DNA from: an uncultured Granulosicoccaceae bacterium | GTDB lineage: Bacteria > Pseudomonadota > Gammaproteobacteria > Granulosicoccales > Granulosicoccaceae | Length of the DNA: 33,976 bases | Reading direction: 5' to 3' | NCBI GenBank assembly: GCA_938008205.1 | Contig: CALLLY010000385.1 | Location: 1 to 33,976 of the forward strand | Shown here: one piece after another, positions 27,782 to 29,765 of the stretch | Numbering within the stretch: the first letter of the stretch is position 1 | Layout: the number at the start of each line of letters is the position of its first letter | The notes under the pieces: model-generated | Databases searched by the model: none | Told to the model about the DNA's origin: nothing | The model's input: the letters and a program-made list of their open reading frames with translations, nothing else | Made by a program: the position numbers and the translations under genes

Positions 27782-28453
27782 ATGACCACACTCTATTTAA
27801 TCCGACATGGCCAGGCGTCCATCGGCACTGACAATTACGATGTGCTGTCACCGCTCGGCGAACGGCAAGCAGCATTGCTGGGAAAACATCTGCAACTACT
27901 CAACGTATCCTTTGATGCGGTGTACAGTGGTTCACTTACGCGGCAAAAAGATACCGCTGCAATCGCCTTGAATCATCAGCCTGTTAGCCTGGAGATTATC
28001 GCCGGTTTTAACGAGTACCACCACGCAGCAATTTACCAGCACTATGCTCCACGAACTGAACTGAAATCAGTCTCCGATCATAATGCACAGCTTGAGTACG
28101 AGGCGTTCTCGACACTGATGAACGCCTGGACCCAGGACAACGAGACAAATTCTGGCGACCTTGAGACATGGCTCCAGTTCAAAACCCGCATACATCAGGC
28201 AATAGATGAAGTCGCAGCACGACATAATCGTGATGACACGGTCGCGATATTTACGTCCGGAGGAGTGATATGCACACTAATGCAACGTATTCTACAGTTT
28301 CCTACCCCCAGAATTTTTGAGATTAACTGGGGTATCTATAACGCCAGTATTTCAAAAATCAAATTGCATCGTGGAGGCATGAAATTGCGTGAGTACAACA
28401 ATATTACGCACCTGCTGCTACATCAGGACGACTCGCTGGTGACCAATATCTGA
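27782..28453 (+). CDS. Histidine phosphatase (phosphoglycerate mutase-like) family protein
   Basis: MTTLYLIRHGQASIGTDNYDVLSPLGERQAALLGKHL; the listed start (27695) adds 29 residues without family resemblance, so ATG 27782 is preferred. Confidence 0.88.
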   Translation: MTTLYLIRHGQASIGTDNYDVLSPLGERQAALLGKHLQLLNVSFDAVYSGSLTRQKDTAAIALNHQPVSLEIIAGFNEYHHAAIYQHYAPRTELKSVSDHNAQLEYEAFSTLMNAWTQDNETNSGDLETWLQFKTRIHQAIDEVAARHNRDDTVAIFTSGGVICTLMQRILQFPTPRIFEINWGIYNASISKIKLHRGGMKLREYNNITHLLLHQDDSLVTNI

Positions 28454-28455
28454 TC

Positions 28456-28707
28456 ACCTAGCCTGCATTATTCATGAGGATTCGTCACTCAGCGGAAATA
28501 GTGCAAAACAGGTCGCTTGATCAAGCGAGAAACGTGGCCCGCCACGCGCCGAGCTTGATCGGGCGAGATGTGCAGCAATATTTGTGTCTGATGGTGAATA
28601 GACACACTGTTACATTGAAACTGGTCGGTAAGTACAAGTTTTGATCTATAAAAATAGTAATTTCTCTTAAGTTTCCGCGGTCGCCTCATGAATAATGCAG
28701 GCTAGGT
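28456..28707. mobile_element. MITE-like non-autonomous element, or IS remnant, with 24-bp perfect terminal inverted repeats
   Basis: acctagcctgcattattcatgagg (28456-28479) is the exact reverse complement of cctcatgaataatgcaggctaggt (28684-28707); ~204 bp between, no convincing transposase ORF. Confidence 0.8.
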
Positions 28708-28772: not shown

Positions 28773-29765
28773 CTACGGAATTAAGACAATCTTGGGCGCA
28801 GCAGACTTACCGTTATGTATATCGGCAAATGCACCGGCACCATCCGACAAAGGTCTTTGCTCAACCCAGTCCAATGCTCCTAACCCACCATGATGCAGCA
28901 ACGCAATGGACGCATTGAGATCAGCCACGGTGTAGCAATAATTTCCAACAAACGATACTTCCTGCAACGTTAAACGGCGCGTGTCCAGTCCGAGCTCCTG
29001 ATCCTGCAGTCCGGCATGACAGATTACTCCTCCCGGCCGGACCATCCGGCTGCTCGCTTCGCGGGTCTTGCCACTGCCAACGGCGTCGAACACCACATCG
29101 AAGCTTGCTTCTTCGGGCTCGTTTTGAAGCGGATTATAGACATGCCCGAAATTGTGTTTTTCTGCAGTGGTGCGGCGCAAAGCATTAGTATCACCGAGAT
29201 AGACCTCTGAGCACCCTTTACTCTTAAGTACCAGGGCAGCCAGCACCCCGATAGCGCCCGCACCCAGTACCAGCGCGCGCGCTTCAGAGACCGGGCGATG
29301 CAATACTCTTTCAGCCAGCACAACGCTGTGCACACCCACTGCTGTCGGCTCAGTCAGGCTGGCCTCGATAATACCCATATCTGCCGGCATCGTTAAAGCA
29401 TTTCGGGCCGGCAGAACGACCTGATCAGCAAAAGCACCGGCAATACGCATTCCGACCAGCTCTCGTGCCGCGCAAAGGTTACTTCTACCAGAGACACATT
29501 CTTGACAATGACCACAGGTTATTAAGGGATTAACGATAACCCGCTCGCCCTGACGGTCTCCGTTTTGCACCACACCACAAGCTTCATGACCCAATACCAA
29601 AGGCGGTACGCGCCGCGCATCTAATCCATGATACGCGTGCATATCCGAACCACACAAACCGCAGGCATCGACGCTCAGCAGCATTTCATCAGCCGCGGGG
29701 GGTGCAGGTTCAGGCTCGTCTCGATAAACCACGTCCTGCGTGCCGACATAAACCAAAGCTTTCAT
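28773..29765 (-). CDS. Zinc-type medium-chain alcohol dehydrogenase
   Basis: 'CGLCGSDMHAYHG', 'LGHEACGVV', structural-Zn Cys cluster 'CGHCQECVSGRSNLC', Rossmann 'ALVLGAGAIGVLAALVLKSKG'. Confidence 0.94.
   Translation of the reverse strand: MKALVYVGTQDVVYRDEPEPAPPAADEMLLSVDACGLCGSDMHAYHGLDARRVPPLVLGHEACGVVQNGDRQGERVIVNPLITCGHCQECVSGRSNLCAARELVGMRIAGAFADQVVLPARNALTMPADMGIIEASLTEPTAVGVHSVVLAERVLHRPVSEARALVLGAGAIGVLAALVLKSKGCSEVYLGDTNALRRTTAEKHNFGHVYNPLQNEPEEASFDVVFDAVGSGKTREASSRMVRPGGVICHAGLQDQELGLDTRRLTLQEVSFVGNYCYTVADLNASIALLHHGGLGALDWVEQRPLSDGAGAFADIHNGKSAAPKIVLIP

Follow-up and report, generated by a model that had tools for sequence, protein, structure and literature searches.

A family of IS1380-type miniature elements with a strand-specific fold in Gammaproteobacteria

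A 33,976-nucleotide stretch of DNA from an uncultured Granulosicoccaceae bacterium (contig CALLLY010000385.1; the window) carries a 240-bp miniature inverted-repeat transposable element (MITE) of the IS1380 type, that is, a short element whose ends and 4-bp target duplications are those of IS1380-family insertion sequences (ISs). Its interior contains a hairpin of ~120 nt on the plus strand, and selection has kept this fold while the sequence diverged; the family with this strand-specific fold is old and widespread but patchy. The element is probably moved by the enzyme of another transposon. Our preferred reading, to which we assign a probability of about 0.6, is that of a non-autonomous IS1380-type element that must carry the fold in cis in order to propagate and whose copies decay once inserted; we have moderate confidence that the fold owes its retention to a benefit for the spread of the element. 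MITEs are commonly regarded as deletion derivatives of short life whose interior has no meaning; in this family, one anatomy and one fold have persisted in ten gammaproteobacterial families, ~110 copies are found in one 3-Mb genome, and the signature of selection is tied to spreading, not to single insertions. If this reading is true, a single strand that folds in cis is put to use by a DDE element of the IS1380 type.

A conserved hairpin on one strand

Across 95 full-length copies, conservation is far higher in the first ~160 bp than in the ~60 bp that follow. Our 47-pair model of the fold is based on an alignment of 43 diverse copies from the genus (A1), which describes one long hairpin with internal loops: 90.0% of the alignment cells are paired, versus 29–46% when the partners are slid by 1–3 columns. 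Two-sided changes occur in 190 cells versus 68 in shuffles, and none of 500 shuffles reaches 190; in helix P3 (Table 1), compensatory change is seen at 10 of 17 pairs. The structure that RNAalifold predicts on its own largely overlaps this hairpin. A second alignment (A3) comprises 29 distinct copies, of which nearly all come from nine further families of Gammaproteobacteria. It gives 91.4% paired cells versus 32–40% slid, with compensatory change at 38 of 47 pairs, counts that lean to the fold because A3 was fitted to a covariance model (R1) built on that fold; neither the slid controls nor the anatomy common to the copies depends on this fitting. In Rfam, no relevant match was found for the window copy or for any of ten distant loci. 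The initial annotation, made from the sequence alone, had described the interior as structured; the structure is real, but that description underrated a covarying fold conserved across ten families.

These data bear on another account, in which the element is an ordinary MITE that arose from an IS1380 transposon by internal deletion, with a meaningless interior and a high identity that reflects recent spread. The IS1380-type ends, the 4-bp duplication, and the lack of a long open reading frame are all as that account would have them; the copies, however, are only about 70–90% identical by BLASTN, yet the fold has been kept by compensatory changes in ten families. Moreover, none of the IS1380 transposon loci tested has the covarying fold, not even an intact one (L067, described below), and it is also lacking in the same-ended elements of cyanobacteria and in those of 175 bp from Acidobacteria, so the interior is not simple IS debris. 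We therefore give this account little probability.

The pairing also identifies the strand. On the plus strand, 97 cells are G.T and 14 are A.C, versus 146 and 74 in shuffles. An A.C pair is the mirror of a G.T pair on the other strand; thus, tolerance of G.T but not of A.C indicates selection on the plus single strand, not on a double-stranded palindrome. The same counts argue against the pairing being a mutational by-product, in which template switching within an imperfect palindrome would copy one arm onto the other and so produce compensation without selection. Arm-to-arm correction of this kind is established for bacterial quasi-palindromes, and the element has the form of a single long, imperfect hairpin; however, symmetric correction of the arms predicts no excess of G.T over A.C, and A.C is about five-fold depleted relative to the shuffles as opposed to only 1.5-fold for G.T. 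In addition, the unpaired sequences of the internal loops and the segment 3' of the hairpin are conserved and have not been made palindromic, and the keeping of pairs is concentrated on internal branches of the copy trees (vide infra), so we regard a purely mutational origin as having very little probability.

Pairing changes on internal and terminal branches

We assigned changes by parsimony to trees of the copies, in which internal branches represent the lineages that spread and terminal branches the time after the last insertion. Two sets were used, the genus-centered copies and those of G157, a complete ~3-Mb genome of another family. Among changes from paired states in G157, 17 of 75 on internal branches break the pair (to A.C or another mismatch) versus 49 of 95 on terminal branches (p = 1e-4); in the genus, the corresponding counts are 32 of 95 and 150 of 232 (p = 4e-7). 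A count made pair by pair, with three trees for each set, gives the contrast in five of six trees (odds ratio 2.5–3.9, p < 0.01), and slid pairings show no internal/terminal excess. Changes to G.T and to A.C stand at 36:12 on internal branches and 84:63 on terminal branches. In G157, the terminal repeats accumulated 9 internal and 53 terminal changes, and the tail of the element 135 and 146. In both sets, pair breaking is rare on internal branches and near-neutral on terminal ones: the fold decays in single inserted copies, as the terminal repeats do. The retention of both the fold and the ends only in lineages that spread is expected of a cis-acting need in transposition. The copy trees are noisy, metagenome-assembled genomes (MAGs) contain errors, and the test establishes an association rather than a mechanism.

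If the fold instead served the host as a transcript element (by 3'-end protection, termination, processing, or as a small RNA) that buffers or regulates its neighbors, working copies would be selected by the host, a role comparable to that considered for BOX and SPRITE. Selection on the plus single strand is compatible with such a role, as is the intergenic siting of the copies (one of 103 in the genus set lies inside a called gene, and none was noted in G157). However, host-level upkeep of each copy would constrain terminal branches too, and their near-neutral changes suggest that single copies are not maintained; also, no terminator-like U-run follows the fold. In the genus set, the right-hand gene points towards the element in 57 cases and away in 23, with no bias on the left side; this bias would favor a role in the host but is absent in G157 (33:31), and a strand-oriented role in mRNA was dropped on that ground. 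Overall, we think a host function rather unlikely.

With propagation in cis as the preferred reading, an IS1380-family DDE transposase would recognize the 18–19 bp ends in trans and insert the element at CTAG or, more generally, YTAR, duplicating those 4 bp; the ends and the duplication are seen directly in the copies, and mobilization is inferred. The plus single strand, either as nascent RNA or as a DNA strand exposed during transposition, would fold and might then be recognized by the transposase or by a host factor. A more specific proposal is a cut-and-paste IS1380-type element that depends for its propagation on a strand-specific fold, of RNA or of single-stranded DNA, in cis beside one end, a fold-dependent kind of DDE transposition, of which we found no description, in an old non-coding family across Gammaproteobacteria; we put this forward only tentatively.

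Several observations weigh against the preferred reading. A search of the genome to which the window belongs (87% complete) for an IS1380 transposase (PF13701) found none, and no IS1380 mobilizer was found in the complete G157 despite its ~110 copies. The internal/terminal contrast fails on a G157 tree built from the tail only, which is poorly resolved. Any promoter for a plus-strand RNA is hypothetical, and just 18 bp precede the fold. To these must be added the lean of the A3 counts described above.

To our knowledge, no RNA has been reported for IS1380, a DDE transposase family; this counts against a further possibility, that RNA from the element acts in trans by binding the transposase or its mRNA or by guiding the transposase to its target, as the bridge RNA of IS110 does. 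The structured plus strand directly beside one transposon end speaks for this possibility, and IS110 provides a precedent (PMC11208160); however, the target is only CTAG/YTAR, no covarying match between guide and target was seen (none was sought), and an action in trans poorly explains selection on propagating copies alone. We consider it very unlikely.

Ends, target duplications, and candidate mobilizers

The initial annotation had likened the arms to IS1380-type ends, and this comparison proved accurate: IS1380-family transposons that have such ends and CTAG occur in the genus, both intact and partial. A 1.7-kb transposon in the genus-mate G007 (L067) is flanked by CTAG on both sides and has the ends CCTGATCTATTCATGAG and CCTGGATTATTCATGAGG, one of which is identical over 18 bp to a common end variant of the MITE; its 470-aa transposase scores 365 bits against the NCBIfam IS1380 cut-off of 180. 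In G193, an IS of ~1.77 kb (L267), likewise with CTAG, has CTAGCCCGCTTTTCTCAC at both ends; its transposase is above the Pfam cut-off for PF13701 but, at 131 bits, falls short of the 180 that NCBIfam sets for IS1380. Single matching ends lie beside IS1380 genes at three other loci (L264 in G298, L265 in G193, and L074 in G011), and in Phormidium an exact 22-bp end, CTAGCCTGCATTATTCATGAGG, lies beside an IS1380-like pseudogene whose family was read from the translation and not scored. Thus, the element is not a single-copy sequence lacking any IS with matching ends, the outcome that would have spoken against a mobile element: it is multicopy, and the ends of L067 and L267 match. Taken together, the sequences of the ends and the 4-bp duplications point to a DDE mechanism. 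One candidate mobilizer was rejected: the only PF13701-like gene of G157 belongs to a four-copy, 1333-bp IS4-family element (L266, L269, L272, and L275) with ends CACTAGTGTCCGG, unrelated to those of the MITE.

Other short elements were noted. In an Acidobacteria MAG, 175-bp elements that share the ends CCTGCATTATTCATGAGG and have CTAG duplications (L116:6832-7006, L119:1339-1513, and L128:2473-2647) have a different interior and are a second type of MITE with this kind of end. In the genus, an element of 160 bp next to a standard copy (L018:1783-1942) has ends CCCGGATTATTCATGATG, with TTAG as a direct duplication, and possibly represents a further short MITE family.

The initial annotation saw no clear target-site duplication in the window; in fact, CTAG is present on both sides of the element, and it was read as arm sequence because CTAG is its own reverse complement, which masks the duplication. 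Across the 118 copies of the genus-centered set, the flanks are CTAG/CTAG in 63, TTAG/TTAG in three, and CTAA/CTAA, TTAA/TTAA, and CTGG/CTGG in two each. Of 66 copies in G157, 33 have CTAG/CTAG and 10 have non-palindromic direct pairs (TTAG, CTAA, CTAT, ATAA, TGAG, CAAG). The mirror-image pair TTAG/CTAA was found once in the genus and not in G157. A relative lacking the element was also found: the genus-mate G009 keeps the gene pair that flanks the window copy, with the two genes ~80 bp apart and the element missing; this intergenic sequence has diverged too far for the exact empty CTAG to be recognized.

Among the 64 G157 copies with called neighbors (L310-L369), a stop codon directly abuts the element at 20 gene ends (counted from the list of copies); these stops lie inside the duplicated 4 bp (e.g., the TAG of CTAG) and are thereby preserved. 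At L344 and L354, both convergent genes end at the element, and the 4-bp duplication preserves both stops. At L313 (G157:C1:660800-664600), three copies form a head-to-tail array (662364-662992) with a 247-bp period, in which neighboring copies have the bases between them in common; this suggests repeated insertion into a duplicated target. Elements at L314 and L333 are likewise head-to-tail or closely spaced.

Anatomy, distribution, and related systems

The arms described initially (28456-28479 and 28684-28707) are perfect, as claimed: 24 nt each, 100% complementary, 204 nt apart, and the sole inverted repeat of at least 12 nt within the surrounding 801 bp. The overall extent of ~252 bp is too long, however; a comparison of 118 copies places the ends of the element proper at 28462 and 28701 (240 bp), with the true termini CCTG on the left and CAGG on the right, and the outermost AC/GT of the arms is a chance extension beyond the duplication. 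The element has no open reading frame of at least 80 aa, which, with its many copies and 4-bp duplications, bears out the earlier description as MITE-like. It lies, as had been noted, between convergent genes: on the plus strand, a histidine-phosphatase-like gene with its end at 28453, and on the minus strand, a gene resembling zinc alcohol dehydrogenases (28773-29765). The 16-bp palindrome (28513-28528) and the hairpin CGTGGC-CC-GCCACG (28533-28546) that had been picked out are both present; the inverted GCGGAAA near the two ends (28492-28498 and 28672-28678) is present too but is no family feature, as the right one falls within the tail, which is unconserved, and the left one varies among copies. 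The features are collected in Table 1.

Table 1. Features of the element and its target duplication in the window.
Feature	Position	Strand	Basis
CTAG target-site duplication, left copy	28458-28461	.	duplication counts in genus-centered set and G157
Left terminal inverted repeat, CCTGCATTATTCATGAGG	28462-28479	+	perfect inverted repeat; common to genus copies and IS1380 transposons
Covarying long hairpin, 47 pairs in family model	28480-28599	+	directly after left repeat; alignments, models R1/R2
Helix P1, 5' side (partner 28588-28599)	28480-28492	+	columns 1-13 with 113-125
Helix P2, 5' side (partner 28575-28585)	28494-28504	+	columns 15-26 with 99-110
Helix P3, 5' side (partner 28553-28571; overlaps palindrome 28513-28528)	28508-28526	+	columns 30-48 with 77-95
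Apical hairpin P4, CGTGGC-CC-GCCACG and closing position	28532-28547	+	columns 54-61 with 65-71
Helix P3, 3' side	28553-28571	+	fold alignment of 43 copies
Helix P2, 3' side	28575-28585	+	fold alignment of 43 copies
Helix P1, 3' side	28588-28599	+	fold alignment of 43 copies
Conserved unpaired segment after hairpin, AGACACACTGTTA (AGGCACAAACTGT in distant copies)	28600-28612	+	genus and cross-family alignments
Fast-evolving tail, ~70 bp	28613-28683	+	majority-base frequency
Right terminal inverted repeat	28684-28701	-	perfect inverted repeat; genus copies
CTAG target-site duplication, right copy	28702-28705	.	duplication counts in genus-centered set and G157

The majority-base frequency is 0.52–0.67 in the tail versus about 0.8–0.9 in the core, and G157 copies give the same contrast. 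Lineage-specific insertions of ~12–20 bp inside stems or loops (e.g., ...CCAGGTTGATCAAAA...) are seen at L026, L064, L182, L186, L188, and L189 and in copies from G006 (L197, L200-L204).

The window's genome is a MAG of 3.66 Mb in 494 contigs, and its genus-mates are titled uncultured Granulosicoccaceae. A BLASTN search of this genome, the check proposed at the outset, yields about 20 copies or fragments; each of the 13 genus-mates has matches too, and the relatives searched from outside the genus gave a single weak one. With model R1, all 14 genomes of the genus are matched (2–65 matches each), as are 11 other genomes, from nine other families, among 274 sampled from the class. The distant copies (~243 bp) have the anatomy of the window copy: 4-bp duplication, CCCGSATATTGCACGAAGG-type repeat, the fold immediately behind it, tail, and right repeat. 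The covariance model R2 has 141 matches in G157, about 110 of which, counted from the list, are copies remaining once mirrored opposite-strand matches are removed. It also has 70 matches in the sister-genus genome G014 versus none by BLASTN, so covariance models find copies that nucleotide searches miss; in the remaining genera sampled from the family of the window, R2 has no match or one weak match. Among 399 genomes drawn from across the phylum, only the window's own genome and one weak match were found, so the family is patchy; that weak match, a single one in G347, was not counted, as by eye no terminal repeats of the element's kind adjoin it. The element was not matched on plasmids, phages, or IMG/VR contigs in the searches made, and no MITE of this kind was found described in the literature searched, a scope that left out most subscription papers and ISfinder.

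Of known systems, IS1380-family ISs (NCBIfam NF033539; Pfam PF13701) are alike in their terminal repeats, CCTGSATTATTCATGAG, and their 4-bp CTAG/YTAR duplication; unlike them, the element has no transposase gene and an unrelated interior with a fold that the IS1380 loci tested do not have. REPINs, doublets of REP sequences with 71 bp between the 16-mers that are linked to RAYT (REP-associated tyrosine) transposases, are also short, non-autonomous, extragenic elements with a hairpin and compensatory changes; their hairpin is predicted in single-stranded DNA or mRNA, and they have putative transposition intermediates (PMC3116915). By description, they are set apart from the present element by its 240-bp length, IS1380-type ends, 4-bp duplication, and asymmetric fold with an unconserved tail. 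The BOX, RUP, and SPRITE repeats of Streptococcus pneumoniae are likewise MITE-like with strong predicted RNA structure; BOX is modular, the ends of RUP match an IS, the terminal repeats of BOX and RUP form part of the fold, and all three occur mostly in S. pneumoniae and close relatives (PMC3049150). Unlike in BOX and RUP, the conserved fold here lies beside the terminal repeats and is common to ten families. For Nezha, a cyanobacterial MITE compared by description, we know of no fold conserved across families. Nezha, as cited in PMC3049150 and PMC10969869, resembles the present element in having an IS with matching ends as its proposed mobilizer.
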